NCBI RefSeq assembly: GCF_039555335.1
Contig: NC_092637.1
Span: forward strand, 8,080,038 to 8,144,037
DNA length: 64,000 nt
Direction: 5' to 3'
DNA from: Amphiura filiformis
Taxonomy: Eukaryota > Echinodermata > Ophiuroidea > Amphilepidida > Amphiuridae
How positions within the stretch are numbered: position 1 is the stretch's first letter; each line of letters opens with the position of its first letter. Shown piece after piece: positions 13,737 to 64,000 of the stretch. Below the pieces are notes generated by a model, which saw only the letters and a list, made by a program, of their open reading frames with translations, had not been told where the DNA came from and did not search any database. A program made the position numbers and the translations under genes.

Positions 13737-14449
13737 GTAAAACTATTATATGCCGATTTGTCTGATATTTCTCGTCTTGGTGAAATGTTTCTCAATCCAT
13801 TGTATAGGGTGTATCAAAATGATGTCCATCAGCTTTCAGTGATTATGGGCAAGACTGAGACATCAAAATGCCACATTGACGAATGTCATAATACGTTACG
13901 TTCATAAAATATCCTCCTCATTTTAAGAGGATCCAATTTTACATATTGAAGAAGCAGACTTGTCAATAAACTCTAAAAACTGGTGGGTACCAAACATTTT
14001 GATACAGCTTGTCCTATATTGTCCACTTACATAATATAACAGACATAGTGACATAGATATAGATACCAGTGACTCACCTGTAACAGCAAAACAATCTACG
14101 ACTGACATTTAAACGACAAAGGAAGAGTTTGTATCCAAAAGGCGATGTGTCCTTATTGAAATGAACAGTATGCCCATTGCGGTAGACCTACATACATGTA
14201 TAAATCATTTTGTTTTCTTCTAATTTATTTCATGGTGTTAATTAGTGATGGAAATATGTGAATACTGTTAGTGGTTTTATTTTACTGTAAATTTAATGTA
14301 ATTGCAGAATTCACTAATAATCGCTAATCATGATATCGTTATGATATGCCTGTATTCTGCCATAAACATGATAAACCAGTATAAGTATTTGAAATAAAGA
14401 AAAAACAACTTGCAGTGACGCGATCTGTTTCTCGTCATTTCATTTTCAG
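13737..14449. other. Intron; the inverted duplication is visible here
   Basis: Bases from about 14320 onward ('ataaaccag'... 'gccataaacatgataaa') match the complement of the last bases of the window (63930-63985). This is the earliest point where the large inverted duplication can be followed. Short inverted ends ('gtatcaaaatgatg' near 13810 and 'attttgatac' near 13995) may bound a small MITE. Confidence 0.5.
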
Positions 14450-14563
14450 CTCCTTGCCATCCAGGTTATCTTCCTTGTTCATCTGATGGGCCATGCATTG
14501 AGGAGAGTCGATTTTGCGATGGATTTGTAGACTGCCTAGAAACATTTATAGATGAAAAGGATT
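14450..14563 (+). CDS. Exon L15: LDLa type B
   Basis: 38-codon exon, acceptor 'catttcattttcag', donor 'gtgagt'. Motifs APCHPGYLPC, SSDGPC, IEESRFCD, DEKDC. Paralogue of R15 on the right arm, from which it differs at about ten residues plus one codon, while all Cys are kept. Confidence 0.93.
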
Positions 14564-14745
14564 GTGAGTAAAATTTCCGATCGCTGAAAAAATTGGCCGA
14601 TACAAAAGAAGATTTAAGCATTCATTCCGAATTATATTATTTTACTGTAACATATTTCTATTTTTACAAAACAAACAAATCATGGCGAACACTGCATCTA
14701 ATTATACGTTGGAGGTAATTATGTAATTTGTCCAGCTTTACTATG

Positions 14746-15050
14746 TGGGAAGCACGGTGACCTAGTGGTTAGGGCGTGAGCTTCATAATCCAAAGGTTGC
14801 GGGTTCGAGCCCCACCACGGCCAGTGTGTTGTGTCCTTGAGGAAGATAGCTTATTTCCCAATTGCTTCACTCCACCCAGGTGTAAATGGGGAGCTGCTGG
14901 GGGTAATCACAATCTAAGTCGCTGAAAGTACCTCCGCATCGGTTGCGGACTTGGTGAAGGGAAATGATTATGATGTATTCTAACATGTCTAATGGCAGCG
15001 GAATAATTGTTGAAGTGTGCTGGTGCTTCGGCGAAGCGCACGTTATAAAC
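14746..15050 (+). mobile_element. tRNA-derived SINE
   Basis: tRNA-like head with A-box-like 'tagtggttagggcg' and B box 'gggttcgagcccc', followed by a body with 'ccttgaggaagatagctta' and 'ccacccaggtgtaaatgggg', and a short stem 'gcttcggcgaagc' near the 3' end. This head/body design is common in invertebrate SINEs. It ends about 30 bp before the L16 acceptor. The right arm lacks it at the same place. Confidence 0.75.
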
Positions 15051-15080
15051 AACCAACATTTTAAATTATATACTGTGCAG

Positions 15081-15191
15081 GTCCGTGTCCAGGAAATGGT
15101 GAGAAGCTTTGTGATAATACTCGTTGCATTTATCCTGACAAGCTGTGTGATGGGAAAGATGATTGCGATGACAACTCTGATGAGTCCAAAT
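15081..15191 (+). CDS. Exon L16: LDLa type A
   Basis: 37-codon exon, acceptor 'tatactgtgcag', donor 'gtaagc'. Motifs [35 protein letters not shown]. The residue before C2 is Leu instead of the usual Arg. Right-arm paralogue is R16. Confidence 0.92.
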
Positions 15192-15635
15192 GTAAGCTCG
15201 TTGTAAATCTTTAGTGCGTTTAAAAGACAAATTGAATATTCTGTGACAAAAATATAGTAGGCAATGTATCACTGAATGAGAACCAATGTTAAGGATTTCG
15301 ACATAAAATATCTGTTTTTGTTCTTCTAGTATCATATCGATTTTAACCATCGCCTTACAAAGCGGGTGCCTATAGGGATTGTCTAACTTGAAACCCGACT
15401 CCAGGATAAGGGGAGACATCTCAGACATAGTATACACACAGTATTGTGACCAACTGTTCAAAATGATCTCTAAACATGTGTAGATCTTTTTGCTAAAACG
15501 ACCCCTAAACAAGAATAACAGCGCAAACAACGACTTTGATCCCTTCCAGTGGCGGCGCTTGCCCCCCCAGTTTTTCCCCCACTTTTGAGGTAATGACCCC
15601 TACAATTACGTAAATTTCCACTTTTTGCGGCAATC

Positions 15636-16093
15636 ATGAAGAAAAGGAAGTATGAGCATATCACCCCCGTCATATATGAGCTTCACTGGCTGCCTTTAGA
15701 ATTTCGGATTCAGTATAAGTTAGCTGTTTTTGCTTTTCGGCACTTTGAAGATACTTTACCAACTTATCTGTCTGCTACGCTCTGCACGTACAAACCAGCT
15801 CGACCACTTCGATCTTCTACTGAAAGATTATTGAAATCTCCCCGTGTAAATCTTAAATCGGCTGGTGAACGCTCCTTTCATTTCGGTGCCCCGGCTGTTT
15901 GGAATTCGCTTCCAAACAGCCTCCGTAACACACATTCGCTTACTCAGTTCAAAAAGCAACTTAAAACTAATCTTCTTTTCGTGCTTTTCCGGATTCACAT
16001 ATGTAACTTGTTTGTCTTTATTGCTTGTGCGCCTTGAGTTCTTTTGAAGATTGCGCGCCTACTAAGAACCCTCCATTATTATTATTATTAATT
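15636..16093 (+). pseudogene. 3' fragment of a CR1/L2-like non-LTR retrotransposon
   Basis: Open frame (15636-16037) with ELHWLPLEFRIQYKLAVFAF, FHFGAPAVWNSLP and LTQFKKQLKTNL, the typical C-terminal tail after the reverse transcriptase of CR1/L2-type elements. It ends in an (ATT)n tail near 16078-16093. 5'-truncated, with no RT catalytic core. Intronic, between L16 and L17. Confidence 0.8.
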
Positions 16094-16990: not shown

Positions 16991-17104
16991 GTTCGACCAC
17001 AATGCAAATGGAGTCTACAACGGAATTACCCAGCACAACTGATATATTGAGTACATCCATGACGACAGAGGCGACTACCACAATAGAACTGACAACAGAA
17101 GCGG
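16991..17104 (+). CDS. Exon L17: Thr-rich linker (long form)
   Basis: 38-codon phase-1 exon, acceptor 'attccattataag', donor 'gtactt'. Encodes STTMQMESTTELPSTTD... and TTEATTTIELTTEA, with no Cys. Close to L20 (same length) and to R20. R17 has the same core plus a 10-residue insertion. Confidence 0.88.
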
Positions 17105-17294: not shown

Positions 17295-18065
17295 CATAAA
17301 CACCTCAAATAAAGAAAGTCCGCACTTATGTAACCCATCCTACACCAAAACCTGGTCTTTTTATGACAATTTGACGATTGAGAGATCGTGTGCAGAATCT
17401 TGTTAGCTCCATTTTCAAACTAAATATGCTACCAAGAACTCTACATTTACATAGATTGATACCAATACCAGTATATGAAAATTTTTCTGATGTCTCAACT
17501 TTCATATACTAATATGTAGCTGTCAAGTTAGCTCAATCGATAAGGCGTTCGACTATGGTGCGAGAGGTTGCGAGTTCGAACCCTGGTGGTGCCTAGTATG
17601 CGCTCGTGGAAAAATTGAGTCAGCTTGAAATTCCCTTGGACAAGGAACTCACTGCTAATTTGTCTCGTTGTAACCCGTACGAAACTCGGGGAGCTGATCC
17701 TGGTTGCGATGGTTATTTGTGGAATGTCTAGGGTGTGCGCTCTTGAAGCAGCAAAGTCCCTGAATTGTTGTTTATGGAATGATGTGGGGCCATAGTGGTC
17801 AGCGACAACCTGTAAAGTGTGCTGAGGCTTGTGGATCAACGTCTAGGCGTTGTGCCTGTGCGTAGCGCACTATAAATCAATGCGCTTTTTTTTTTTAAAT
17901 ATGAATATTTGTTAATATAGAGTGTTTGGTAGCAAATTTGGTATCAAATTGCAGCTAACAAGATGCTGCACACGACCGTATCAATCAAATTGTCAAAACA
18001 AGATCGGGATTTGGTGTAGGATGGGTTATATAAGTGCGGACTTTCTTTATTTGAGATGTTTATCT
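17295..18065. mobile_element. Inverted-repeat element carrying a SINE; absent from right arm
   Basis: 17298-17450 (aaagaaagtccgcacttatgt...) pairs with 17918-18060 (...agtgcggactttctttat), the two arms of a MITE. Between them lies a tRNA-derived SINE (17521-17890). The right arm reads straight through at about 58890-58910 ('gtgagctaaagatataagtagtgagcatcac'), an empty-site allele, so the insertion came after the duplication. Confidence 0.75.
17521..17890 (+). mobile_element. tRNA-derived SINE, full length
   Basis: tRNA-like head (A box 'tagctcaatcgataagg', B box 'gttcgaaccct'), a body shared with 41395-41652, and a 3' end 'cgcactataaatcaatgcgc' followed by a T run. The 41.4-kb copy lacks the tRNA head. 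Confidence 0.8.
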
Positions 18066-18415: not shown

Positions 18416-18532
18416 ATCCTTGCGATCCAGGTTTTCTTCCTTGTTCATCTGATGGGCCATGCATTGAAGAAAGTCGTTTTTGCGATGCATTTGTAGATTG
18501 TCGAGAAACATTTAAAGATGAAAAGGATTCTT
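18416..18532 (+). CDS. Exon L18: LDLa type B
   Basis: 39-codon exon, acceptor 'ctcttcttttcag', donor 'gtgagt'. Motifs DPCDPGFLPC, SSDGPC, IEESRFCDAFVDC, DEKDSC (one residue longer before C6 than L15). Very close to L15 and R18. Confidence 0.93.
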
Positions 18533-20188: not shown

Positions 20189-20299
20189 GCCCGTGTCCAC
20201 GAGATGGCGATATTCGGTGTGATAATGCACGTTGCATTGATCCTGACAAGATATGTGATGGGAAAGACGATTGCGACGACAACTCTGATGAAACAGCTT
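20189..20299 (+). CDS. Exon L19: LDLa type A, seed of a minisatellite
   Basis: 37-codon exon, acceptor 'tataatgtacag', donor 'gtaaga'. Motifs [35 protein letters not shown]. It starts GC rather than GT, so the split C6 codon of L18 becomes TGC, still Cys. The last 34 bases of the exon plus 91 bases of the intron are the unit repeated 26 times downstream. Confidence 0.92.
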
Positions 20300-23200
20300 G
20301 TAAGACTATTGTTAATATGTTATTGTAACTTCAATTGGATTATTCTGTGACAAATTATTGTGACAAAATTGATTATTATATCTCCTACTTGACGATTGCG
20401 ACGACAACTCTGATGAAACAGCTTGTAAGACTATTGTTAATATGTTATTGTAACTTTAATTGGATTATTCTGTGACAAATTATTGTGACAAAATTGATTA
20501 TTGTATCTCCTACTTGACGATTGCGATGACAACTCTGATGAGACAGATTGTAAGACTGTTGTTAATATGTTTTTGTAACTTCAATTGGATTATTCTGTGA
20601 CAAATTTTTGTGACAAAATTGATTATATCTCCTACTTGACGATTGCGATGACAACTCTGATGAAACAGCTTGTAAGACTATTGTTAATATGTTTTTGTAA
20701 CTTCAATTGGATTATTCTGTGACAAATTTTTGTGACAAAATTGATTATTATATCTCCTACTTGACGATTGCGATGACAACTCTGATGAAACAGCTTGTAA
20801 GACTATTGTTAATATGTTTTTGTAACTTCAATTGGATTATTCTGTGACAAATTTTTGTGACAAAATTGATTATTATATCTCCTACTTGACGATTGCGATG
20901 ACAACTCTGATGAAACAGCTTGTAAGACTACTGTTAATATGTTTTTGTAACTTCAATTGGATTATTCTGTGACAAATTTTTGTGACAAAATTGATTATTA
21001 TATCTCCTACTTGACGATTGCGATGACAACTCTGATGAGACAGATTGTAAGACTATTGTTAATATGTTTTTGTAACTTCAATTGGATTATTATGTGACAT
21101 ATTTTTGTGACAAAATTGATTATTATATCTCCTACTTGACGATTGCGATGACAACTCTGATGAAACAGCTTGTAAGACTATTGTTAATATGTTTTTGTAA
21201 CTTCAATTGGATTATTCTGTGACAAATTTTTGTGACAAAATTGATTATTATATCTCCTACTTGACGATTGCGATGACAACTCTGATGAAACAGCTTGTAA
21301 GACTATTGTTAATATGTTTTTGTAACTTCAATTGGATTATTCTGTGACAAATTTTTGTGACAAAATTGATTATTATATCTCCTACTTGACGATTGCGATG
21401 ACAACTCTGATGAAACAGCTTGTAAGACTATTGTTAATATGTTTTGTAACTTCAATTGGATTATTCTGTGACAAATTTTTGTGACAAAATTGATTATTAT
21501 ATCTCCTACTTGACGATTGCGATGACAACTCTGATGAAACAGCTTGTAAGACTATTGTTAATATGTTTTTGTAACTTCAATTGGATTATTCTGTGACAAA
21601 TTTTTGTGACAAAATTGATTATTATATCTCCTACTTGACGATTGCGATGACAACTCTGATGAAACAGCTTGTAAGACTATTGTTAATGTGTTTTGTAACT
21701 TCAATTGGATTATTCTGTGACAAATTTTTGTGACAAAATTGATTATTATATCTCCTACTTGACGATTGCGATGACAACTCTGATGAAACAGCTTGTAAGA
21801 CTATTGTTAATATGTTTTTGTAACTTCAATTGGATTATTCTGTGACAAATTTTTGTGACAAAATTGATTATTATATCTCCTACTTGACGATTGCGATGAC
21901 AACTCTGATGAAACAGCTTGTAAGACTATTGTTAATATGTTTTTGTAACTTCAATTGGATTATTCTGTGACAAATGTTTGTGACAAAATTGATTATTATA
22001 TCTCCTACTTGACGATTGCGATGACAACTCTGATGAAACAGCTTGTAAGACTATTGTTAATATGTTTTTGTAACTTCAATTGGATTATTCTGTGACAAAT
22101 TTTTGTGACAAAATTGATTATTATATCTCCTACTTGACGATTGCGATGACAACTCTGATGAAACAGCTTGTAAGACTATTGTTAATATGTTTTTGTAACT
22201 TCAATTGGATTATTCTGTGACAAACTTTTGTGACAAAATTGATTATTATATCTCCTACTTGACGATTGCGATGACAACTCTGATGAAACAGCTTGTAAGA
22301 CTATTGTTAATATGTTTTTGTAACTTCAATTGGATTATTCTGTGACAAATTTTTGTGACAAAATTGATTATTATATCTCCTACTTGACGATTGCGATGAC
22401 AACTCTGATGAAACAGCTTGTAAGACTATTGTTAATATGTTATTGTAACTTCAATTGGATTATTCTGTGACAAATTTTTGTGACAAAATTGATTATTATA
22501 TCTCCTACTTGACGATTGCGATGACAACTCTGATGAAACAGCTTGTAAGACTATTGTTAATATGTTTTTGTAACTTCAATTGGATTATTCTGTGACAAAT
22601 TTTTGTGACAAAATTGATTATTATATCTCCTACTTGACGATTGCGATGACAACTCTGATGAAACAGCTTGTAAGACTATTGTTAATATGTTTTTGTAACT
22701 TCAATTGGATTATTCTGTGACAAATTTTTGTGACAAAATTGATTATTATATCTCCTACTTGACGATTGCGATGACAACTCTGATGAAACAGCTTGTAAGA
22801 CTATTGTTAATATGTTTTGTAACTTCAATTGGATTATTCTGTGACAAATTTTGTGACAAAATTGATTATTATATCTCCTACTTGACGATTGCGATGACAA
22901 CTCTGATGAAACAGCTTGTAAGACTTGTTAATATGTTTTTGTAACTTCAATTGGATTATTCTGTGACAAATTTTTGTGACAAAATTGATTATTATATCTC
23001 CTACTTGACGATTGCGATGACAACTCTGATGAAACAGCTTGTAAGACTATTGTTAATATGTTTTTGTAACTTCAATTGGATTATTCTGTGACAAATTTTT
23101 GTGACAAAATTGATTATTATATTTCCTACTTGACGATTGCGATGACAACTCTGATGAAACAGCTTGTAAGACTATTGTTAATATGTTTTTGTAACTTCAA

Positions 23201-23508
23201 TTGGATTATTCTGTGACAAATTTTGTGAGAAAATTGATTATTATATCTCCTACTTGACGATTGCGATGACAACTCTGATGAAACAGCTTGTAAGACTATT
23301 GTTAATATGTTTTTGTAACTTCAATTGGATTATTCTGTGACAAATTTTTGTGACAAAATTGATTATTATATCTCCTACTTGACGATTGCGATGACAACTC
23401 TGATGAAACAGCTTGTAAGACTATTGTTAATATGTTTTTGTAACTTCAATTGGATTATTCTGTGACAAATTAATTATTGTGACAAAATTGATTATTATAC
23501 ATCCTACT
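20266..23508 (+). repeat. 26-copy, about 125-bp minisatellite spanning an exon-intron boundary
   Basis: Units start at 20266, 20391, 20516, 20638, 20763 and so on, to 23381, with spacing 122-125 bp and very high identity. Each unit is 34 bp of LDLa coding end ([11 protein letters not shown]) + the 5' splice site 'gtaaga' + 91 bp of intron. Copies 2-26 have no AG acceptor before the coding part ('cctacttgacgattgc'), so they should not be exons but do present 25 extra donor-like sites. The right arm has a single, unexpanded unit after R19. Confidence 0.95.
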
Positions 23509-24280
23509 TCATTATCTCTCTCCTTTATCCACCGTCTTACAAAAAGGTGCCTGTAAGAGTTGCTGAAGCCCAACTCCGGTGTTGGGGCACTGAATCATAA
23601 TAGTGCACACGCGCTTGACCAACTATTTTCAAAATGCTACCTACACAGATTTTGTTTAGAGAATGCTCTCTAAACAAATTATTTTAATGAAAATCGATGT
23701 TCAAAGACCCATAAACACAGAACGTGCATTCCGCATTCATGAACCAAAAAATACTTTTTCACACGCTTTTTGACACGCTTGTGTTCACCAATATACCTCC
23801 CGGGCCCAACAAATATATTTATTTTTGCCCTTACAAAATATTAATAGTGATATTTGATTTAAACTTTATATTCATATTTCGTCTAGTATACTTTGTACGT
23901 AGCTACTGAGCCCAGATAAGTCCAAAATTTAGTTGTTAAACAGTGATCAGAGTGTTAACTCTAGTCACTATACAGACTTTAGTGATGACTAGAAAATGTG
24001 TCATCTCATGAGGGTTCTAATTAATGGTCAATGGTTCGAATTTAACACATTTCATTTCTACCTCATATTGATGCCAATCACTAAAACAATTTTATTCCAA
24101 GTTCCAAGTTTTTCCAAGTAAAAATGTTTGTCACCATGGCACAAAGAGCAGGCTGATCATATACCGCCTAAACGAAACATATTGCCCATATTCCAGGCTA
24201 AAAATTTCACTGTGGTTAAGAGAAACTTATGAGCTTTCTTGGAACCAAATGCATACCGTAATAACACAAGTTGGTAGTGT
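23509..24280. other. Intron, duplicated from the L16-L17 intron
   Basis: 23525-23660 resembles 15345-15480, and 23800-24070 resembles 16270-16640. This supports a tandem duplication of the block carrying an A, a T and a B exon. Nearby sequence (24120-24270) also matches the complement of 56650-56760. Confidence 0.6.
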
Positions 24281-25853: not shown

Positions 25854-25967
25854 GTTCGACTACAATGCCAATGCAGCCTACAACCGTATCACCCACCACA
25901 ACTGATATATTGAGTACATCCATGACAACAGAGGCGTCTAGTACAATAGAACTGACAAGAGAATCGG
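25854..25967 (+). CDS. Exon L20: Thr-rich linker (long form)
   Basis: 38-codon phase-1 exon, acceptor 'gtaattacaag', donor 'gtactt'. Encodes STTMPMQPTTVSPTTTD..., MTTEASSTIEL, TRES. Clear duplicate of L17, including about 100 bp of the following intron (gtactttattatttcaagct). Confidence 0.88.
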
Positions 25968-26118: not shown

Positions 26119-26232
26119 ATGTATGCGGTCCAGGTTACTCTCCCTGTTCTGATGATGGACCATGCTACGCAGACCAATTTTATTGTGATGACTTTATAGA
26201 TTGCACAGAAACCAAAATCGATGAGAAAAATT
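26119..26232 (+). CDS. Exon L21: LDLa type B
   Basis: 38-codon exon, acceptor 'ttttgtttag', donor 'gtgagt'. Motifs DVCGPGYSPC, SDDGPC, FYCDDFIDC, IDEKNC. Paralogue R21 is one codon shorter and differs at about ten residues. Confidence 0.92.
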
Positions 26233-27691: not shown

Positions 27692-27802
27692 GTCCATGTT
27701 CAAATGCAAGCCACATCCGATGTGATAACATCAGGTGTATTGCTCCTGACCTGGTTTGCGATGGCAAAGATGATTGTGGGGACTACTCTGATGAGACGAA
27801 TT
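27692..27802 (+). CDS. Exon L22: LDLa type A
   Basis: 37-codon exon, acceptor 'ttatcaatctag', donor 'gtaagt'. Motifs [32 protein letters not shown]. Compared with R22 there are ten amino-acid replacements in 37 codons and only about two purely synonymous codon changes. All six Cys and the Ca ligands are kept. Confidence 0.93.
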
Positions 27803-29349: not shown

Positions 29350-29385
29350 GTCCGGTGGCTACAACAGAGTCATCTACTACAACAG
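29350..29385 (+). CDS. Exon L23: minimal Thr-rich linker
   Basis: 12-codon phase-1 micro-exon, acceptor 'gttttccattttag', donor 'gtgagc', encoding PVATTESSTTT. Same length and position as R23 in the right arm, which supports it as real despite its size. Confidence 0.85.
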
Positions 29386-29541: not shown

Positions 29542-29655
29542 ACCCATGCGTATTAGGTTACTTTGCTTGTTCACCTGGAGGACCGTGCATTGGAGACTGG
29601 CTTGTGTGCGATGCCTACCCTGATTGCAGAGAGACAAAGAGGGATGAAATAAACT
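29542..29655 (+). CDS. Exon L24: LDLa type B
   Basis: 38-codon exon, acceptor 'tttcttcttttacag', donor 'gtaagt'. Motifs DPCVLGYFAC, SPGGPC, WLVCDAYPDC, RDEINC. R24 differs at ten residues, including Val-Leu to Ser-Pro and Arg-Glu to Asp-Val, with cysteines unchanged. Confidence 0.92.
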
Positions 29656-33122: not shown

Positions 33123-33233
33123 GTCCATGTCCAAGAGAAGGTCACGTCCGCTGTGCAAACCTAAGGTGTATTCCACCTGCCCTCATATGCAATGGAAGAG
33201 ACGATTGTCGTGACAATTCCGATGAGATCGATT
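33123..33233 (+). CDS. Exon L25: LDLa type A, last recognisable domain
   Basis: 37-codon exon, acceptor 'aataatatatag', donor 'gtaaga'. Motifs [32 protein letters not shown]. Resembles L2 (LRCIPP, NGRDDC, SDEIDC). Right-arm paralogue R25. No further LDLa is found before the centre of the inverted duplication. Confidence 0.93.
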
Positions 33234-33479
33234 GTAAGATAATTAGATTTTTACAATTAATCATAATTGAAGTCTTCCACTAAACAACATAATAACATTG
33301 GTGACATCTGCATTGAAGAATAATAGCCATTAACCAGTGCGGAAGAATTGCTTTCTACATGGGCCCTCTTTTGGATGTAATCGGAACGAATTAAAGTCCC
33401 TTCCGAAGAACAGAGTACTATCATGGTTCATTTTCCTAATTCTAAACAAGCCATGAGGATGGTCTAAATTTAATCTACA

Positions 33480-33605
33480 TATGTTGCCAAGACTTACTTT
33501 TTGCCAGTCAATACCGCAGCAAGTTCCTAAGGCTGGGAATTGAACTCGAGACCTTTTGCTCTGGAAGCGAACACTCTACACACTAGGTCATGCTCTCCCA
33601 CATAT
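33480..33605 (-). mobile_element. tRNA-derived SINE, shared by both arms
   Basis: On the - strand: A-box-like 'tgacctagtgtgtagagtg' and B box 'ggtctcgagttcaattccc'. The same element is at 50535-50660 (+) next to R25, so it predates the duplication. Confidence 0.7.
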
Positions 33606-33726
33606 TTATGAAAGAGGGATCAGGAAAAAACCATTATGTGCTCATAATTGTATAATTTTATTAGTATTGTTTGTTTAAAATATAATGATAATATATAATA
33701 ATGATGAAGATGACGTAGATATTAAC

Positions 33727-33728
<2 letters not shown>

Positions 33729-33794
<66 letters not shown>

Positions 33795-33795: not shown

Positions 33796-33833
33796 GTTGC
33801 TAAAAATTGTCTCTTCTTTACTCTATTCTACAG

Positions 33834-33841
33834 GTCCGTGA
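33834..33841 (+). CDS. Candidate terminal coding mini-exon (Cys-Pro-stop)
   Basis: A strong acceptor ('tctttactctattctacag') is followed by GTCCGTGA. Spliced to L25 (ends in T) this reads TGT-CCG-TGA, completing C6 of L25, then Pro and stop. The same acceptor and octamer occur in the right arm (49994-50001, - strand). An AATAAA-like motif (aataaag) is near 34103. Alternatively it is a decayed exon start, since other exons also begin GTCCGTG. Speculative. Confidence 0.4.
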
Positions 33842-33889
33842 ACTATATAACCACATGGGAACAACCTGCCGCAACGCAATGAGTATAAA

Positions 33890-34045
33890 GTCGCAAGTTG
33901 GTAGTTTCGAGACACCCAGGCTGACTGACCTGTTCAAGTATCTGTGTACCTTTGTGAATGTGGGCACAATGGGCCATTCAAGAGGGAAACAAAGGACACC
34001 AACGCATTAGCCAGGGCGTTTCGAAACTACCAACTTGCGAACTTA
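33890..34045. mobile_element. Small foldback element
   Basis: cgcaagttggtagtttcgag and its complement (tttcgaaactaccaacttgcg) bound about 150 bp. The homologous copy in the right arm (48485-49950) is split by a retrotransposon fragment. Confidence 0.7.
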
Positions 34046-34332
34046 CTATACTCGCGCAGGCACATATAACAATAGCTGCATAATAATACTCAGTAATCAA
34101 AGAAATAAAGTCCATACTACTTTGAGGGGCCATAACTTTAAGCCCAGTAACAATATTATTGATATGAACGTGTGGCGAATTTACCGTATGATATCAAACT
34201 TTGTAAAACGATATCGAAAAATTGGAGAAATAAATGATTGAATTGAATATTGTTGTGATTCGAAAAAAGTAACTTGGTAAAAGGTGTCTTGTTAGGGAAT
34301 GTCATTTTCTGCGGAAGACATAGGGGTAGACT

Positions 34333-39605: not shown

Positions 39606-39606
<1 letters not shown>

Positions 39607-41844: not shown

Positions 41845-42900
41845 CTTTGATGCCGATTAGAGATTGCGACAGGCTATTCATAAAAGTGGTACCATTGTTT
41901 CAAACAAAGGGGTTCCGCCATTAAATTGGTCACTGATCCGGCATGATCATATTAACGCTTTACCCAACAGGCGAGTATAAATAAGTGACCACAATACAGT
42001 CATGTGTAAGGGCAGTCATGTGTAAAGTGGTACCATTGTCCTGACGTATCCCAAATGTGCGCTTGTGCGGGTCTGAAGTGTATAAAGGAGGCTTTAGTTG
42101 TCGATATAATCTTTTTATCACCCACCTGACTGTAGGCGCTTCATTTAAATAAATTGAATGCCCCTGCTGATCGACTACACATCAGAATGTATTAGCTGCC
42201 AGGTCCAAATTGTATAGTATTCTATAATGGTAATCGCTGCGTATACATGTAAGTATAAGTATAGGCCTATAAAGGTTTTTTTTCACAAATGTCCATTTAT
42301 TTTTATTTTAAGAAGGAGATTGGCATAGAAATAGCGGCGGTGGAAGGGGGTGGAGCAGATTCTCCCCTGTGAGAAGTCTTGAGATGGGATATGAGGGAGG
42401 GTAAGAGAAGGAGGGATATGGAGATTGAGGGGGCCTACAGGAAGGGAGAAAGAGGACAAATGAAGAGAAAGAAATAATGAGAAGTAAATAAAATAATAGA
42501 ACGATAAGGGCATATTTATATTGGAATGACTGAGAGTGAGAGAGGACAAAAAGAAAAGAAGGAGGGGGAAGAAGGCAAGAGAGAGAAGGATAGCGAGGGA
42601 GTGATAAAGTTAGTGTAGGTATAGGAAAGAATAAGTACAGAGAAAGAAAAGAAAGGAAAATAAATGTAATAATAATTATTATAAAACTTAACACATAACA
42701 GCACTAAGCAGCCATTCGATGACATCAATGCCGTTGTGCATTACGTAATTAAAAAGCCCAGTCAGATGTATTTCGCACCTGCCAAGCACAAGTCACCCAA
42801 TTTCGAAAACTGGTCGTTGACTGTACACTCTCATGAATATTGATTGGCAATATTTTCCAATATGTCAGCGCTCTAATAAGACACAATAGAACAATGGACG
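41845..42900. repeat. Left arm of inner inverted repeat (partner 44640-45610)
   Basis: About 1 kb matching the complement of 44640-45610, for example 'tggtcactgatccggcatgat', the GA-rich tract 42340-42660 against the CT-rich tract 44880-45130, and 'gtacactctcatgaatattg'. Axis near 43.75 kb. Long open frames in the purine/pyrimidine tract are low-complexity artefacts. Confidence 0.8.
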
Positions 42901-43050
42901 TTGCAGCCCGCTGGACTCCGCTTTAACGGTTCTCATGCATGGGACCGGGCCATCGGGACGATACCTAGCCGTCTATCACGTGACCAGCCCAGCGGGTCAG
43001 TTGCCTGATGAAGTCTGGTGGTTCCAGACGCAACGTCGCAATAGTTGCAA

Positions 43051-44121
43051 ACAAGTAAGTTCCAGTATTAGATTTATTTCCAAAACTGCCTAAAGTGGAT
43101 AACCTCTATTGTTAAAGATGTGAATAAAACAAAATGGGTACATACGAATGAAACGAATATTTATTTATATTGATTAAAAATATTCATTCCATTTGTAATT
43201 TTTTATTATCAGGTCATTTATATTTTGCTATAGTGTATTTCAAACGGTAACCATTTTGGCGGCCACTTTTGAAAACTTACTTTCTGGAAGGCCTTGGCAT
43301 ATATAATATGAAAATGCAGAGTAAGTCTGTAAAAAGTCATGTACACATAGACCCACAAGAGCATGTAGCAGCCTTCCTTATTAATCTTTCCCTTCACAAT
43401 AGAGCAGAAAACACGCCAAAAAGCATAAAAACAGGTTATGAACATAGGGAGGGGTGACAATAGAAGATCCTTGCTTGCATTTGCGTTTTCAACTACAATT
43501 GAATATTTTTTCGTTTTGCGTTTGGGGCTCTGCTATAGGTGTATGTCACGGGATTCGCCTGTGGCTTATCCAAATAGAAAGATAGTTTGATATAGCCTTC
43601 TGTCAACGTGGTGAAAGGTGTATGTCCACATACAGGATTAATACAAATTTGAACATATCACCAAATTGTTTTAGGACCTTTATTGATTAAACACATGGTT
43701 GATCACACCTTGAAACATACCAGTATTGACGTGCTATTTCGTTGCAAAAAGGTGCAGTGAGTCTCTATCATCGAATATCAGAATCACGGTACCACCCAAA
43801 TACAGACCGCAGCCACTTATAAGCTTAATAAAATTCAAATATGACACCAAATTTATTGTACGAACTTTTATTGATGAAACATAACTTTATCGGTGCTTCA
43901 CTAAAGACGCAGTGAGTCTCTATCATCGAATATCACAAAAGTGATATTCGACGAAATTATTGTACTTTGCTTACTTGTAAATGCTTATATTTATATACGA
44001 CACCAAATTATTTTTTATAGTAGAGACATAATACTAAGTTGATGAGAGTTTTCATTGCAACAAGGGTCAGTGCGACTCTCTCGTAGAAGTCATGTCCACC
44101 TGTACATGTATCACAGTAGAA
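43051..44121. other. Spacer around the axis of the inner inverted repeat
   Basis: 43380-43515 and 43620-43855 are inverted matches to 38869-38990 and 37620-37870. 43910-43960 holds a short self-complementary tract (tatcatcgaatatcac / gtgatattcgac). No gene. Confidence 0.55.
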
Positions 44122-45930
44122 TACGAGGGTCATTTAAAAAAGTTCTACCTGTTGGGTCATAACTTTTGTTTTGTTAAAGGTAGCTACTAGGAAATATGCA
44201 GACAAAAATCATGTCAAGGCCATTTTCAGAATTTTTGTTGGTAACCTGAAAACCACAGTAAGATATGGTTCACCGGAAACGGTCAAAATATGTACAATAT
44301 TTACAAAGGCGTCTCAAGTACAGTGTGTTGACGATCCCATAATTATCCCACAAAGGGAATTAAATTTCCTTTTTTGACTGAAAATGTGTTATAGTAGCTT
44401 TAATTTTGTGTTTTATCAAAAGAACGCAGCTAGAAAAGTCACGCTGCAGGGATGGACACTATGCTGATTATCATTACCCGAGATGTTACAAGATATCCCT
44501 CCAAAAATTGTAATTCTGGGTAATTTCTGTCCATCAAAATTTTACTCTTTCAGTCAAAGATGATGTGTTGGACTGTAAGGTGTATATTCATTCAACATTT
44601 ATATTGTTACTAACAACGCTCTGCAGGGTCTATTGTTCTATTGTTTCCGATTAGAGCGCTGACATATTGGAAAATGTTGCCAATCAATATTCATGAGAGT
44701 GTACATTCAACGTCCAGTTTGCGAAATTGGGTGAGTTGTGTTTGGTAGGTGTGAAATACATCTGACTGGGCGTTTTAATTACGTATCGAATAAAGGCATT
44801 GACATTATCGAATGGCTGCCCAGTGCTGTTATGTATTTAGTTATTATATAGGCCTAATGATTATTATTAAATGTATTCATTATTCCTTTCTTTTCCCTTC
44901 TCTGTACTTATTCTTTCCTAGGCCTACACTTTATCACTCCCTCGCTCTCATTGTCCCCTCTCACCCTCCCTCTCTCATTCCCATCATTTTCCTTATATTT
45001 CTATTTATCTACTTGTCTTTATTATATCTTTTTATTTCTTCCTTCCTCCAGCCCTCTCTCATTCTCCATATCCCCTCCTCCTCCTCCCCTCCCAAGACTT
45101 CTCACAGAGGTGAATCTGCCCCTCCCTCCCCAACCCCCTCCCCTCTTTGGGTACGCCACTATTTCTATACCAATCTCCTTCTCAAAATAAAATTGAATGG
45201 AAATTTCTTAAAAACAACCTTTACAGGCCTATACTTATACCATTATAGTGTAATATAGCTATATGCCGGGGATACTGGACATGGAAGCCTTCATACATTC
45301 TAATGTATAACCGATCAGCAAGAGCATTCAATTTATTTAAATGAAACGCCTAATGTCAGGTGGGTGGTAAAGATGATTGCATCGACAGCTAAAGCCTTTA
45401 GGGATACGTGAGTACAATGGTACCACTTTACACATGACTGCCCTTACACATAACTGTAGTGTGGTCACTTATTGATACTCGCTAGTTGTGTAGAGCGTTA
45501 ATATGATGCCGGATCAGTGACCAATTTAATGGCGGAACCCCTTTATTCGAAACAATGGTACCACTTTCATGAATAGCCTGTCGCAACTTCTAATCGGCAT
45601 CAAACGAACAAAAGATTATATAATCTATTGCGAATCTATTGCGACTCTATTTCTATTTAAAAGCTCTTTGGTTACTAATATGATTTTTTTAGTATCAAGA
45701 GGAACGTTCGTACATTGGCTACACTATCCAATAGTGCAATATCAAAAAATGCGTCACCGTTTCCGGTGTACCATATCTTACTGTGTTTTTCAGGTCACCT
45801 ACAAAAATCTGAAAATGGTCTTGACATGATTTTTTCACCACCTGTAGGTGACATTACGAACTATTTGTATGCCAATTTTCAAGTAGCTACCTTTAACAAA
45901 ACAAAAGTTATTTTTTGAATGACCCTCGTA
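44122..45930. mobile_element. Mariner-like inverted-repeat element, 1.8 kb, no transposase
   Basis: Starts TACGAGGGTCATTTAAAAAA and ends with the complement of TACGAGGGTCATTCAAAAAA. The ends resemble mariner-type termini with TA target sites, and the terminal repeats extend for about 230 bp (to 44345 and from 45690). The interior contains the right arm of the inner inverted repeat and a CT-rich tract, but no transposase motif. Confidence 0.65.
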
Positions 45931-49912: not shown

Positions 49913-49993
49913 TTTCAGTCTAACTACCAACTTGTGACTTTATACTCATTGCGTTGCGACAGGTCACATATTCTTCCCATGTGGTTATATAGT

Positions 49994-50001
49994 TCACGGA
50001 C
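49994..50001 (-). CDS. Candidate terminal mini-exon of right gene (Cys-Pro-stop)
   Basis: Mirror of 33834-33841: acceptor complement of 'ctgtagaatagagtaaa', then GTCCGTGA. Conservation between arms is weak support, because the flanking non-coding sequence is conserved too. Confidence 0.4.
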
Positions 50002-50149
50002 CTGTAGAATAGAGTAAAAAAGAAGACACATTTTTAGCAAGGTGGAACAAATTTCAGATTTACTTATCATCACCATTATCATCATCAACATAATTATGCA
50101 CAACATCAACATCATCATTATTATCAGCTAAATATGAATATCAACATCA

Positions 50150-50206
50150 CCATCATCCGCGCAATATCAACATCATCATCGTCATCACCAACGCCAAAAT
50201 CTACAC

Positions 50207-50243
<37 letters not shown>

Positions 50244-50279
50244 GTCATCATCATCATCATCGTCATCATCATCATCACT

Positions 50280-50314
<35 letters not shown>

Positions 50315-50470
50315 AATCATCATCATCATCGTCATCATCATCATCGTCGTCGTCGTCGTCGTTACGGGCGTCATCACCACTACCATCGTCATCTTCGTCT
50401 TGTATTCAATGTATCGCCACCAACACCGTCATCATCATCGTTAATATCTACGTCATCATCATCATCATCA
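50150..50470. repeat. (ATC)n microsatellite, expanded
   Basis: More than 200 bp of ATC with GTC variants. The left-arm counterpart is only about 67 bp. Poly-Ser and poly-Met open frames here are artefacts. Confidence 0.95.
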
Positions 50471-50990: not shown

Positions 50991-51101
50991 AATTGTCCTC
51001 ATCGGAATTGTCACGACAATCATCTCTTCCATTGCATATGAGGGCAGGAGGAATACACCTTAGGTTTGCACAGCGAAAGTGATCTTCTCTTTGACATGGA
51101 C
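50991..51101 (-). CDS. Exon R25: LDLa type A
   Basis: 37 codons on the - strand, acceptor 'aatttatatag', donor 'gtaaga'. Motifs [32 protein letters not shown]. Five replacements relative to L25 (Pro to Gln, Gly to Asp, Val to Phe, Ile to Asp, Asp to Asn). Cys and ligands kept. Confidence 0.93.
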
Positions 51102-51734: not shown

Positions 51735-53851
51735 CACAAATAAAGAAAGAAAGAAATAAAGAAATTTATATAGCGCATTATGCCAGGCCTCAATGCGCTG
51801 AACAGAGAACTAAACTTACAAATACATTATGCAAAACTACAAAAGTACATATTCATTAGGCATAATACAACCAATACAAATTAATTATAGTAAACACATT
51901 TAAAAACATTATAAAGCAATATTACACTTGAAAGAGAAACAGAAAAGCATATCATATAATGAACAAAAGCATGATAATTATAAACAACACACTAAAATCC
52001 ACATCACTACTCGAATCCCCAGGAAAATTGAAGCCCACAGAAATCACCCCGACAGACCAAGGTAGACAACCGTCGACCAGCACATGACAAACAATCGTCC
52101 ACCCGAGCCAGCCAAAAATTTGTCCCCGAGCAAAACACGCCAGAGACTCAAAATAGTGATCCAGGTCCCAATGTGAAGACATAATAATTCAAAAACAGCA
52201 ATTTCACAATATACAAATTAAATATCATTGTCAAATTTACATCGATACATATATATATAATTGAAACATTTGATTTTTAAATCAAATGTTTAAAAAAGCG
52301 TGGATTTGGCCCGCAGAATTAAAACGCGAAAATAACAAACCCGACCGGCGGGGACCCTGCTGGAGAGGAGAGGTTGCCAGCACTTCACTCTCAGCGGCTT
52401 CGTCAGCAAGTCGTTCAGTCAAATGCAGCAGGGCCATAAACAAAGCAGAAATAACACGCAGAAATGATAACCCTGGAGAGGAGAGGTTACCAGCACATCA
52501 CTCTCAGCGAGATGGTCAGCATCTCGCTCCTGTGAGATGGAAAAACAGGCAGGGTTGAAAACAAATATTAATTAAATATTAAAAAGGTGTGTCTTCAGAC
52601 GACTCTTGAAGGACGACACCGTAATAGAAGAGCGAACTTGAAGCGGTAGATTGTTCCAGAGTGAAGGTGCTGCATACACAAATGCACGCTCACCATAGAA
52701 TTTGGTTGATGGTCGACTTGTGACAGTCAGAGATAACTTGTTTGATGAACGAAGATTGCGAACTGGTTTGTAGTAAGTGACGATATCGGAGATGTATTGA
52801 GGGGCGAGTTGATTGAGAGCCTTGTATGTCATGAGCAAGATCTTGTAAGCTGCACGTTTCTTGATGGAAAGCCAATGAAGCGATTGTAAGACTGGGGTAA
52901 TGTGCTGAGATCGAGGAATGCGAGCGACTAACCGGGCTGCTGTGTTCTGGATCAGCTGAAGTTTTGTGATGTAGGAATCAGGAAGACCATAGACTAAGGC
53001 GTTGCAGTAGTCCAGCCGAGAGGTGACAAAAGCGTGAACTAATTTGGCAGCAGTTTCGTCGTCGATGAAATGACGTATTTGCCCTATTTTCCGTATGGCC
53101 GCCATAGCAGACCTGCAGATACTGTCAATATGATCCTTCATGCAGAGGTTGGAGTCGAATATGGCGCCAAGATTCCGTGCACAAGATGAAGGGGAGATGA
53201 CGGAATTGCCTATGACTAAAAACGGTGACGGTGAAGGCATGTTGACGGTGGTGAACCGAGAACAGATATAAAGAAGCTCGGTTTTGGCGTCGTTTAACAC
53301 CAGCCTATTCTCAACGGCCCACCGCCTCACTTCAGCGATACATTTCTCAAGAACACGGATAGCATGTTCACGATCTTCTGGTTTAAATGTAATGTAAAGT
53401 TGAGTATCATCAGCGTATGCTACTGTTGAAATGCCATAGGAAGTAATGATATCTTGGAGAGGAGCACTGTAAAGGATAAACATTAAAGGACCGGCAACTG
53501 ATCCTTGGGGAACTCCACAATCTAAGGTAACTTTCTTTGAGATGCAGCCATTCACTGCAACAGATTGTCATTTTGTACACGCACTAATGCAGTTTCCGTG
53601 CCATGATTTTGACGATAGGCCGATTGCATGGTGGCAATGAGATTGTGTTCACGGAGATAAACCTGTAATTGGCTGATGACGATACGTTCGATCAGTTTAC
53701 CGAGGAACTTCAAATTAGAGATCGGACGATAGTTGCTAAGATCATCACGATCCAATTTAGCCTTCTTAAGAAGAGGAGACACACCAGCGTGCTTAAGGGT
53801 AGCTGGAAAATAACCAGATGCCAGCGAATGATTGACAACTTTAGTCACCAT
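51735..53851 (-). pseudogene. L2/CR1-like non-LTR retrotransposon with internal deletion
   Basis: On the - strand, 53851-53552 encodes the RT N-terminal part (VSPLLKKAKLDRDDLSNYRP, SAYRQNHGTETALVRV). 53555-52572 encodes RT core GVPQGSVAGPLMFILYSAPL and the catalytic YADDTQLY, then LHWLSIKKRAAYKILL and the L2-type ending FKSRLKTHLFNI. The segment between 'GTETALVRVQND' and 'GVPQG' is missing, removing RT motif A. The 3' UTR runs to a (CTTT)-like tail near 51735. Right arm only. Confidence 0.85.
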
Positions 53852-53936
53852 CGGTAGAAGTTCAGGGATGCTTTCCTTGACAATGCAAGAAGGTAATGGA
53901 TCAAATGAGACACAATTTTATCAATATTTTACTCAC

Positions 53937-54050
53937 AGTGTATTTCATCCCTCTTTGTTACGTCGCAATCAGGGAAGGCATCACACACACGCCAGTCATC
54001 AATGCATGGTCCTTCAGGTGAGCAAGCAAAGTAATCTGGTGAACATGGGT
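53937..54050 (-). CDS. Exon R24: LDLa type B
   Basis: 38 codons, acceptor 'tttcttcttttacag', donor 'gtgagt'. Motifs DPCSPDYFAC, SPEGPC, WRVCDAFPDC, RDEIHC. Splice context is nearly identical to L24, but ten residues differ. Confidence 0.93.
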
Positions 54051-54209: not shown

Positions 54210-54245
54210 CTGCTGTAGTAGATGACTCTGTCGTAGCCACCGGAC
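54210..54245 (-). CDS. Exon R23: minimal Thr-rich linker
   Basis: 12 codons, acceptor 'gttttccatttag', donor 'gtgagc', encoding PVATTESSTTA. Only the last Thr differs from L23. Confidence 0.87.
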
Positions 54246-55216
54246 CTAAATGGAAAACAAAACAAAACTCTACCGGTATAAAGTACTTTCATCAGAAAAA
54301 ACAAAGTACCAAAACTAGGTTATTAGGTTAGGTTCAAATGTCTATTTGCTTTCATATTTAGCAGACTATTTAAAAAAAATGAAAATCACCAATGAGGTTT
54401 AGCCGAAAATCAATTCCGCGAGGGTGCGCTCAAAATTTCGGCTATTCGGCGTCATATGCGGTAGTCACATATGTAATTTGGGAAGAAGTCATTTTGAAGA
54501 ATTAAGTTACTAATATGTAAGTCTTTAATCAAAAGTAAAGCACGATTTAACAATAATCTTGTGAGTGAACATAAATACATACAATCAGTCAGAATCAATC
54601 AAATATTATGTTTAATAATTTATCTTCGTGTTGTTGATTTCAAAGTTCTATGTCCTGATTAACTTGTCCTGCGAAGATTACTGTTCAGCAAAGTTCACTG
54701 AAGACTTTTATAATAAAATATTCGCACAGTTGACAATCTCTAAAATGGTGCTATTTTCACCTTTCACACAATTTCTTCAGGAAAACAGGTCTGAAGTGGA
54801 TCTACCTGTTTCCATTTACACTGACAGAAATGTTGTTTCATAAACCAGACTTCAGCAAGTCAACAAAAGATAAATAATCAAATCAAAGTTGACCTTAAGT
54901 GGAGTTTGGTCCAAATGTAGACTCTGGCTAAAGCAAATGCATATATGCAAATCATGTACATATAGTATGTGGTATGTAACAGATGGGGCACTTGCTATGT
55001 TTTCGGCAGACGAGCCATTTTGAAGGTATTTCCTTTTGTACCGGATATCACCCCTTACTGACCGTTGACCCATAAATTAGAGTTTTATTCCTTCTCCTCT
55101 TATTCTCCATTTCAACTGCTTTTTCGTAATTGGTTTCACATTATCAAAAATAAATGGTAAATGGTAAAAAGTATCAGGTGCAATAGATTGCCGCCAAAAA
55201 TATATAACCAACTTAC
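54246..55216. other. Intron, no exon seen
   Basis: Contains scattered homology to the L22-L23 intron. A short inverted pair around 'ttcaggaaaacaggtctgaa' is the only structure noted. Confidence 0.45.
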
Positions 55217-55327
55217 AATTGGTCTCATCAGAGTTGTCCCCACAATCATCTTTGCCATCGCAAACCATTTCATGGCCAATGCACCTTACGTTATCACATC
55301 GGACTTTGCTTCCATTTGCACATGGAC
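55217..55327 (-). CDS. Exon R22: LDLa type A
   Basis: 37 codons, acceptor 'ttatcaatctag', donor 'gtaagt'. Motifs [32 protein letters not shown]. The loop between C3 and C4 (IGHEMV against IAPDLV in L22) is changed at four of six positions. Confidence 0.93.
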
Positions 55328-55978: not shown

Positions 55979-56089
55979 AATATTTCTCATCTACTTTAGT
56001 TTCTGTGCAGTCTATAAAGTCATCACAATAATATTGGTCTGCAATGCATGATCCATCATCACAGGGTAAGTAACCTGAATCGCAACCAT
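55979..56089 (-). CDS. Exon R21: LDLa type B
   Basis: 37 codons, acceptor 'ttttgttttttacag', donor 'gtgagt'. Motifs DGCDSGYLPC, DDGSC, YYCDDFIDC, VDEKYC. One codon shorter than L21 in the C2-C3 loop and otherwise colinear. Confidence 0.92.
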
Positions 56090-56234: not shown

Positions 56235-56348
56235 CTGATTCTGTTGTTAGTTCTATTGTGGTAGACGCCTCTGTTGTCATGGCTGTACTCAATATATCAG
56301 TTGTTCTGGGTGATTCCGTTGTAGGCTCCATTGGCATCGTAGTCGAAC
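56235..56348 (-). CDS. Exon R20: Thr-rich linker
   Basis: 38 codons, acceptor 'aaattacaag', donor 'gtaatt'. Encodes STTMPMEPTTESPRTTD..., MTTEASTTIELTTES. Same length as L20. Confidence 0.88.
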
Positions 56349-57505: not shown

Positions 57506-57616
57506 AATCTGTCTCATCAGAGTTGTCATCGCAATCATCTTTCCCATCACACAGCTTGTCAGGATTAATGCAGCGTGCATTATCACACCGAATTTCGCCA
57601 TCTCGTGGACACGGAC
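57506..57616 (-). CDS. Exon R19: LDLa type A
   Basis: 37 codons, acceptor 'tataatgcacag', donor 'gtaaga'. Motifs [35 protein letters not shown]. Four replacements relative to L19. The downstream intron contains one unexpanded version of the unit that forms the left-arm minisatellite. Confidence 0.93.
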
Positions 57617-58427: not shown

Positions 58428-58544
58428 AAGAATCCCTTTCATCTATAAAGGTGTCTCTGCAATCTACAAGTCCATCGCAAAAACGGCTTTCTTCAATGCA
58501 TGGCCCATCAGATGAACAGGGAAGGAAACCTGGATCGCAAGGAT
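58428..58544 (-). CDS. Exon R18: LDLa type B
   Basis: 39 codons, acceptor 'tctcttcttttcag', donor 'gtgagt'. Motifs DPCDPGFLPC, SSDGPC, IEESRFCDGLVDC, DERDSC. Five replacements relative to L18, all in the C-terminal half. Confidence 0.93.
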
Positions 58545-59116: not shown

Positions 59117-59260
59117 CCGATTCCGTTGTTAGTTCCATTGTGCTAGACGCCTCTGTCGTCAGTTCTATTGTACTAGACGCCTCTGTTGTCATTGAAGTAC
59201 TCATTATATCAGTTGTGCTGGGTAATTCTGTTGTAGGCGCCATTTTCATTGTGGTCGAAC
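59117..59260 (-). CDS. Exon R17: Thr-rich linker with internal duplication
   Basis: 48 codons, acceptor 'cccaattataag', donor 'gtaatt'. Encodes STTMKMAPTTELPSTTD... then TTEASSTIEL followed by a near-copy TTEASSTMEL. The second copy is a 30-bp direct repeat (59131-59160 and 59161-59190), which lengthens the linker by ten residues over L17, in frame. Confidence 0.88.
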
Positions 59261-61563: not shown

Positions 61564-61597
61564 CATAAAGTCATAATTCATGAATTATGACTTTATG
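61564..61597. repeat. 34-bp perfect palindrome
   Basis: cataaagtcataattca followed by its exact complement with no spacer. Confidence 0.95.
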
Positions 61598-61724
61598 CTC
61601 TCCTATAAACTGTATGTTAAAACGACCAAATTAACCAGTAGGGTTTCTTTCACTTTACCTTGTTATTTCAGCTCAAAATGTACAGAAACCATTCCCGACC
61701 AGTATTACTAGTATTCGTAAATAG

Positions 61725-63015
61725 ATTCATCAGGTTAGCAGAAAATCAGTTTACAAAGTTCATTTTCAAAACCATGTAGATTTGTTCACTAACCTGACAG
61801 TTTCGAACGTCATGGTCGACATTCTTCTCCAGAGTGTTGAACTATGTCCCAACACCTTCCCCGACGAATTTCGGCCTATAGAGGGCGCAGTACTCGCGGT
61901 GATGATGGGGTCATAGATGTGACTTAGAAAATGGGCCCCTCGTCTCTGTTCATGACTTACGGGGCTTTCTTCCTTATTTCCATAATTCTACGCGATCTAG
62001 CGTCACATTCCTTGCTTAGAATTCTGGACCGTGGCCAATCGATGAAGTGGTTTTGTTGGACAGAATGGTCGGATATCGCAGATTTGCTAAGTTCGCTAAG
62101 TTCTAGTCTGAGTGTAAACCGCGTATGTGGAATCTGATCAAGTTGACAACCTTACTGATCACCTCAACAGCACAGACCCCACGGACAGCATCAAATTCAC
62201 TTACGAAAAAGAACATGACGGTATAATACCATTCCTTGATACACTTATAGTCTGAAAGCCAGACGGTTCAGTGAAATTGCTCATTTACCGCAAAGCTTCG
62301 CATACAGACCAATATCTGAATTTTGAGTCTCATCACCCAGTACACCACAAACCGGATTTTAATGGACAGTATGAATACGTTAGTTCCTGGCGTGGATGAT
62401 AAATAACAAGAAGAAACAAAGATTCTAAAAAAGCACTTACTTTCTGTGGCTATCCAAATCGGTCCTTTTAAAAGGTTAAACAACAGATTGAGAACAAGAA
62501 GACTATGAAAACATCTTTAAGAAAAGTAAAAACAGCGGTAAATCCAAGGGGCAACAGCGATGAGATTCCACTCCACATTAAGGAAAATGCTCGTCCACCC
62601 CAAGGACAAGAGGGATTTGGACTCCACAAAAGACTGTGTATATGAAATCCCTTGTTCAAACTGTGATCATTCATATGTGGGTGAAACGGGACGAAGCATT
62701 TCCACGAGACAAAGTGAACACATAAAAGTTATGGACAAAGTGACGAGTTTGAAAACACCCGTCAGATTAGACAACAGTCTGAAAGCAAACTTAGCAAATC
62801 TGCGATAGCCGACCATTCTGTTCAACAAAAAGGGTCCAGATTTATGGAGTCCATCTTGATGAGGAAGAAAGCCCCTCTAGCCGAAATCCGTCGGGAAAGG
62901 TGTTGGGACATAGTCAACACTCTGAAGAAGAATGTCGACCATGACGTTTGAAGCTGTCAGGTTAGTGAACAAAATCTACTTGGTTTTGAAAAATGAACTT
63001 TGTAAACTATTACTA
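61725..63015 (+). pseudogene. Penelope-like element fragment with GIY-YIG domain and inverted ends
   Basis: Broken + strand frames: HLNSTDPTDSIKFTYEKE (about 62160), IIPFLDTL, then KDCVYEIPCSNCDHSYVGET with GRSISTRQSEH (62560-62808), the GIY-YIG endonuclease that follows the RT in Penelope-like elements. Several frameshifts and stops. 61725-62120 is an inverted copy of 62775-63015, so the 3' part of the element also stands reversed at its 5' side. Right arm only. Confidence 0.85.
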
Positions 63016-63330
63016 GTATTATTTCAGCATTTTGAGTATAGAATTTAAAATTTGAAGGAAATCGTACATTCTGGCTTTAATGAACGTGTGTGAATTAGAA
63101 GGGATCAAAGTCAATGTTTGAAATTGCACTGTATCCTTGTCACGCGTGTGAATACTAATATGGCTGAGTGTCCTCCCTAAACCCGGGGGGGCGGGGTTGA
63201 GCTTCAACAATCAATCAGTCATATTCTTAAAATTGGTTCACATTAAATGGTGCATTTCGTATATATTATATTTTTGTCACAAAATATTAAATTTGTCTTT
63301 TAAACGCAAAAATATTTACAACAATCTTAC

Positions 63331-63441
63331 ATTTTGCCTCATCAGAGTTGTCCCCGCAATCATCTACCTCATCGCACAGCTTGTCAGGATCAATGCAACG
63401 TGTATTATCACACCGAACATCCCCATCTCGTGGACACGGAC
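63331..63441 (-). CDS. Exon R16: LDLa type A
   Basis: 37 codons, acceptor 'tatataatgtacag', donor 'gtaaga'. Motifs [35 protein letters not shown]. Gly after C4-Asp is Glu here (CDEVDDC instead of CDGKDDC), unusual for the family. Confidence 0.92.
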
Positions 63442-63702
63442 CTGTACATTATATAAAAAGTTATAGTAAAGCTGGACAAATTACACAATTACACGCAACG
63501 TATATCGAGTAGCGACTTGCAATTGGTATTATTATACGATAATTAGATATAGAGTTCGCCATGATTTGTTTGTTTTGTATAATATACATAACTCCCCAAT
63601 TGTTGCTTTTGTCATTGAAGAAACAGCCCATTAAGTGAAATTAAGTTCAACTCTACTCATATAATATGCATTATTGTGTAAGTGATCAGAAATTTGACTC
63701 AC

Positions 63703-63819
63703 AATGATCTTTTTCATCTATCAATGTTTCTGTGCAATCTATAGATGAATCACAAAAACGACTCTCTTCGATACATGGCCCCTCATCTGAACAGGGACGG
63801 TAACCTGGATCGCAACGAG
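63703..63819 (-). CDS. Exon R15: LDLa type B
   Basis: 39 codons, acceptor 'catttcaattccag', donor 'gtgagt'. Motifs ARCDPGYRPC, SDEGPC, IEESRFCDSSIDC, DEKDHC. One codon longer than L15 before C6. Most 5' right-gene exon in the window. Confidence 0.92.
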
Positions 63820-64000
63820 CTGGAATTGAAATGACGAGAAAACAGATTGCATCACTGCAAGTTGTTAATACTTTCAAGGTCTTCTACTATGTTTTGGGCA
63901 TATTTCATTGTTTTAAAATACTTATACTGCTGTTTGTTTTATCATGTTTATGGCAGAATACAGGCATATGATAACGATGGCATAATTGAGGCTTTTTGGG
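63820..64000. other. Intron at window edge, still paired with left arm
   Basis: 63930-63985 is the complement of 14325-14390, so the inverted duplication continues past the window. Confidence 0.6.

Follow-up and report, generated by a model that had tools for sequence, protein, structure and literature searches.

Are the two convergent genes for LDLa/mucin-like proteins found side by side in the genome of the echinoderm Amphiura filiformis the products of an old inverted duplication, or are they two alleles of a single locus? The stretch analyzed here, referred to as the window, comprises 64,000 bases of contig NC_092637.1 (assembly GCF_039555335.1, positions 8,080,038 to 8,144,037, forward strand) and contains zero N. 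An LDLa gene rich in introns and a reverse-transcriptase element are in keeping with its animal origin. An initial annotation had described in it a large inverted duplication which carries eleven exons in tail-to-tail orientation. The analysis makes two paralogues by far the more probable answer: an old inverted duplication appears to have generated two convergent genes, and both seem to be under purifying selection.

The inverted homology is evident when the left 41170 bases of the window are matched against the reverse complement of the remainder. A single collinear inverted chain of 25 blocks connects positions 14326-39010 (+) with 63987-43398 (-). It uses 25 of 149 inverted matches, comprises 6452 aligned bp and attains a score of 5498, to be compared with scores that averaged 2139 and never exceeded 3202 when the match positions were permuted in 500 trials. 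The direct-orientation control yielded three matches, two of them in the best chain (score 740). That 149 inverted matches existed prior to masking, with only 25 in the chain, reflects a wide cross-matching of LDLa sequences; this is what one would see if neighboring members of an LDLa/mucin family had been placed independently and were alike merely via their shared LDLa modules. Since LDLa exons cross-match, 35 exon stretches and five repeat arrays were masked before a second chain was calculated. Of 37 inverted matches then left, 31 fell into a single chain of 4679 bp and six off it (three direct matches were obtained); 2000 permutations of the masked matches gave 7.8 blocks on average and at most 14. 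Because the chain persists after exon masking, the inverted homology is real and takes in introns and 3' flanks. This contradicts a likeness confined to shared modules, and so does the pairing across arms of all eight LDLa exons when their flanks are included. Independent placement of family members is therefore exceedingly improbable. Collinear inverted homology including non-coding DNA, as expected of an inverted duplication, is present, and the two chains, measured against permutations, bear out the inverted arrangement initially described.

According to the 25-block and the 31-block exon-masked chains the left arm extends from 14326 to 39010 (+), to the extent that its partner is in the window, and the right arm from 43398 to 63987 (-), probably continuing past the window end. 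The arms are located as annotated, and the chain reaches farther inward than had been recognized, to 39010 and 43398. In between lies a central spacer of 4387 bases (39011-43397) outside the chain, with an AAT microsatellite (39517-39605) and repeat copies inside. The GAT microsatellite reported for both arms is indeed positioned at corresponding places, at 33727-33794 on the left and, in an imperfect version, at 50066-50345 on the right. Likewise, the intergenic blocks at 36.5-37.1 and 47.9-48.4 kb match as claimed, and the right side has part of that sequence twice. The putative intronic SINE is probably the block shared by 33314-33726 on the left and 50844-50440 on the right; a search of the last intron against Rfam at E up to 1 returned no match in either arm.

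The search for exons was limited to LDLa-like or Thr-rich exons of phase 1-1; other kinds would escape it. It recovered three kinds, all of phase 1-1, namely two types of LDLa exon (A and B) and a Thr-rich one (T). Within the window, A/B pairs number nine for the left gene (+; 948 to 33233) and four for the right gene (-; 63819 to 50991). Eleven exons, i.e., eight LDLa and three Thr-rich, pair across the arms in order and on opposite strands, and all those listed in the initial annotation were recovered. Each was aligned by codons with its counterpart, and in 10 of the 11 cases both copies are bordered by AG and GT in phase 1. Giving the left copy (+) first and the right copy (-) second, the series begins with A6 (14450-14563; 63703-63819) and B6 (15081-15191; 63331-63441). 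Next are T7 (16991-17104; 59117-59260), the right copy of which is 30 bases longer, A7 (18416-18532; 58428-58544) and B7 (20189-20299; 57506-57616), and then T8 (25854-25967; 56235-56348), A8 (26119-26232; 55979-56089) and B8 (27692-27802; 55217-55327). The short Thr-rich exon T9 (29350-29385; 54210-54251) is defined by codon alignment with approximate starts, the exon search having given only other acceptors (29332 and 54269). A9 (29542-29655; 53937-54050) and B9 (33123-33233; 50991-51101) conclude the series, B9 being the last LDLa exon found in either gene. Outside the paired arm, the left gene has further exons at 0.9-13.2 kb.

Between the arms 301 of 377 aligned residues are identical. 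Per exon, identity ranges from 72% (B6, B8) to 91% (T9, 11 residues); a residue difference of 9-28% thus takes the place of the 5-25% estimated earlier. The pooled paired exons have a synonymous divergence (dS) of 0.286 and a non-synonymous divergence (dN) of 0.109, i.e., a dN/dS of 0.38. The raw synonymous difference amounts to 57.5 of 241.7 sites (~24%), and when the synonymous and non-synonymous counts were rounded and compared by a simple Fisher test, p was 3e-7. The reading frames of both arms are open. Judged from these substitution patterns they are probably maintained by purifying selection, and both copies look intact and may be expressed.

Did the modules multiply before or after the block was copied? 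When the LDLa exons are placed in trees together with 60-bp flanks, each of the eight exons is sister to its counterpart in the other arm (FastTree support 0.73-0.997); the modules therefore multiplied before the block duplication. In the same trees the A6 and A7 clades are sisters, as are the B6 and B7 clades, from which it follows that this module duplication predates the inverted duplication. Of 42 informative sites in the A6/A7 quartet, 33 favor pairing across the arms, six pairing within arms and three a crosswise one; the B6/B7 quartet favors pairing across the arms less strongly, the corresponding numbers being nine of 17, four and four.

The non-coding DNA has diverged substantially. 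In aligned non-coding columns 737 of 4575 sites differ (16%; Kimura two-parameter distance, K2P, 0.182), in agreement with the ~15% initially estimated for introns; these figures are floors because just 26-31% of each span aligned. They are based on 22 of the 25 chain blocks (one trimmed at the microsatellite) and an added block at 33800-33905; the blocks at 23726, 24116 and 32257 were omitted. Across 23 blocks, divergence shows no significant trend with distance from the center (rho 0.29, p 0.17). Low values are seen in the three innermost blocks (0.08-0.10), and likewise in an outer block at 14659 (0.09). At a K2P of 0.18 and with no clear arm-to-arm correction, the locus does not qualify as an actively maintained, gene-converted palindrome; a dedicated test for inter-arm conversion was not run. 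With a non-coding difference of 16% it is not a segmental duplication in the strict sense of >90% identity either.

Further, each arm has acquired DNA of its own, and introns of one arm are up to about five times as long as their counterparts in the other (5554 vs 1157 bases). Restricted to the left arm is a tandem array of 26.0 copies of a 125-bp unit (20266-23509, +; 98% matches); at the respective place of the right arm there is no such array. The unit combines the 3' half of exon B7 with the splice donor of this exon and intron sequence, and no obvious upstream acceptor is present in those units that were read. Probably the array is a recent one by which donor sites are multiplied within the intron. 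Conversely, the right A9-B9 intron contains a reverse-transcriptase element (52575-53917, -). Pfam RVT_1 matches both of its pieces, the second below the Pfam cut-off, and none of the 37 masked inverted matches to the left arm reaches beyond its last few bases.

These data bear directly on the possibility that the arms are two highly different haplotypes of one locus which were mis-joined head-on in the assembly. Each arm has one copy of every paired exon, as alleles would show. Yet there is zero N at any join, the arms are separated by 4387 bases that do not belong to the chain, intron lengths are up to five-fold apart, and the 3.2 kb array and the reverse-transcriptase element are each confined to one arm. 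A read-through chimera of one molecule would yield near-identical arms, which also counts against a mis-join. All in all, we consider mis-joined haplotypes unlikely.

A number of observations nevertheless weigh against an old duplication of a block with preformed modules. A synonymous difference of 57.5 of 241.7 sites and a non-coding difference of 16% are close to the ~20% neutral diversity given for the barnacle Balanus improvisus in PMC8270832, which also cites 16% for C. brenneri and 8% for Ciona savignyi. Divergence alone thus makes alleles unlikely and still leaves them a chance, because a neutral diversity of ~20% exists; the caveat of a very heterozygous genome, raised at the outset, persists in weakened form. 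The alignable share is only ~26% of the span on the left and ~31% on the right. With the outermost match stopping 13 bases short of where the window ends, the right arm probably runs on past it, and the outer breakpoints and the 5' gene ends fall outside the visible sequence. Without flanks only six of eight LDLa exons pair across arms, and left A6 and left A7 group with right A7; the bare left A6 exon is 90% identical to left A7 and 80% to right A6. Finally, the T7/T8 quartet of Thr-rich exons has no clear resolution (seven of 16 sites pair the arms, three pair within arms, six crosswise).

Two candidates for gene conversion between modules were examined and rejected. Left A6 might have been converted by left A7: the exons are 90% alike, but only 66% with flanks, and the within-arm sites are scattered and do not form a single tract. 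Homogenization of left T7 and T8 was suggested by a local match of 85.6%, but in a four-way flanked alignment left T7 and left T8 (73.8%) are less similar than left and right T7 (78.5%). Gene conversion between modules is not claimed.

The old inverted duplication can be envisaged as follows. The ancestral gene would have consisted of repeated modules, each with a Thr-rich exon, an LDLa exon of type A and one of type B in phase 1-1, and of a 3' flank. The modules would already have increased in number by the time a block of at least ~20-25 kb was copied beside itself in inverted orientation, giving rise to two convergent genes. Afterwards the arms would have drifted, up to the 16% now seen in aligned non-coding columns, and would have separately gained and lost repeats, with both frames retained through purifying selection. 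How the copying occurred may be viewed in two ways. An ordinary tandem duplication in which one of the copies was later inverted would leave the identical arrangement as direct inverted copying, and nothing in the window separates both histories. It requires two events, and no inversion breakpoints are seen; we regard it as the less probable route, with an appreciable minority chance. It divides the duplication scenario by mechanism and does not compete with it. The old palindromic duplication as such, already suspected in the initial annotation, is supported by collinearity, exon pairing, a dS of 0.29, a dN/dS of 0.38, arm-specific insertions and unbroken sequence. Very doubtful is the more far-reaching idea that the palindrome serves as a lasting source of variety for a secreted LDLa/mucin protein, by shifts in module number, within-arm homogenization and continuing correction of its innermost parts.

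What kind of protein do the genes specify? By cysteine framework and acidic calcium site the predicted product is an LDLa-domain protein. In the joined A6-to-B8 peptide LDLa (PF00057) was identified by Pfam with an E of 5e-25; four stretches pass singly, with six LDLa exons supplied. The acidic pattern, which we take to be that of the LDLa calcium site, is present in 16 of 16 LDLa exons of the arms and in 25 of 26 in the window, the sole exception being the exon at 8164-8274. Among solved structures LRP2 is the best match for the A6-B6 peptide, followed by LRP4 and VLDLR. LDLR, VLDLR and LRP2 share the LDLa domain with this gene; unlike in these receptors, Thr-rich exons here alternate with LDLa pairs. 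In the arms these exons encode ~11-47 residues, which might carry mucin-like O-glycosylation. No domain besides LDLa passed Pfam in the single joined gene peptide scanned; the 5' part, which is beyond the window, may contain others. A search for relatives in viral contigs gave 42 pattern matches, none of which was confirmed.

Downstream of the last LDLa exon, at a distance of 600 bases in the left arm and 989 in the right, a pyrimidine tract and a CTACAG acceptor are common to both arms. The first base of a putative terminal exon would be 33834 on the left and 50001 on the right; read in phase 1, this exon supplies the rest of a Cys codon and a Pro before the stop. On the left this exon (33834-34110, +) would continue as 3' untranslated region, with its probable end set by an AATAAA at 34104. 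On the right its start is at 49922-50001 (-), and the 3' homologous sequence is interrupted by ~1.3 kb of extra DNA (49922 to 48594) up to the next homologous block, 48594-48442. Read in phase 0, the terminal exon is open on the left beyond the first block of homology. Since the right copy differs in length by 7 bases in this stretch, the phase-1 reading is preferred. Because the exon so read ends Cys-Pro-stop, the protein is predicted to have no C-terminal membrane anchor. Most likely the two genes encode LDLa/mucin-like proteins that bind calcium and are secreted; any signal peptide would fall outside the window, and secretion and function are inferred.

How does this pair compare with known systems? 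Inverted paralogous gene pairs, some of them convergent, are described for Caenorhabditis elegans, C. briggsae and C. remanei (PMC1803023). Like the Amphiura pair, they consist of inverted homologous genes including intergenic sequence and have a central spacer. The C. elegans arms quoted there are 95.7-100% alike and thought to be actively maintained, whereas the Amphiura arms differ by 16% in aligned non-coding columns. At the convergent hsp16 locus the C. elegans arms are identical, C. remanei has intergenic arms with a similarity of 83.4%, and in C. briggsae decay has brought the counterpart to <61% (PMC1803023). The Amphiura pair, in which no clear arm-to-arm correction is seen, resembles these less maintained states. 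Vertebrate segmental duplications are large within-genome copies, sometimes inverted as here; the term usually implies >90% identity (PMC4053137), and the divergence of the Amphiura pair is greater than this. We would classify the pair as an old inverted duplication in which both genes were retained. In the literature on LDLa/mucin genes we noticed no comparable gene pair, and absence from print is not claimed. The locus offers a clean inverted pair in which the growth of modules within the gene can be placed before the duplication, and it cautions annotators against treating the arms as alleles when they are probably separate genes. In other respects it represents ordinary gene-family evolution.

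The window contains additional repeats. A 0.9 kb foldback at 37964-38864, with 77% identity between its halves, has a tRNA-Thr-like sequence near each end (38003-38075, -; 38757-38829, +) and perhaps consists of two inverted tRNA-derived elements. A self-inverted repeat of 0.6 kb (35652-36253) has a related copy 30 kb off (5185-5536, 88%), and the two perhaps belong to a foldback element family; further self-inverted repeats are located at 2939-3200, 6504-6676 and 9834-10080. The inverted pair 41821-42906 (spacer) and 44621-45629 (right arm), 1.1 kb and 75% alike, is inconsistent in order with the main palindrome and represents a repeat element or a local inversion. A direct repeat shared by the left arm (17615-17891) and the spacer (41381-41651) is 92% alike, perhaps a younger mobile element. 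Lastly, two direct copies of 272 bp, 96% alike, lie close by each other at 8753-9024 and 9087-9358.

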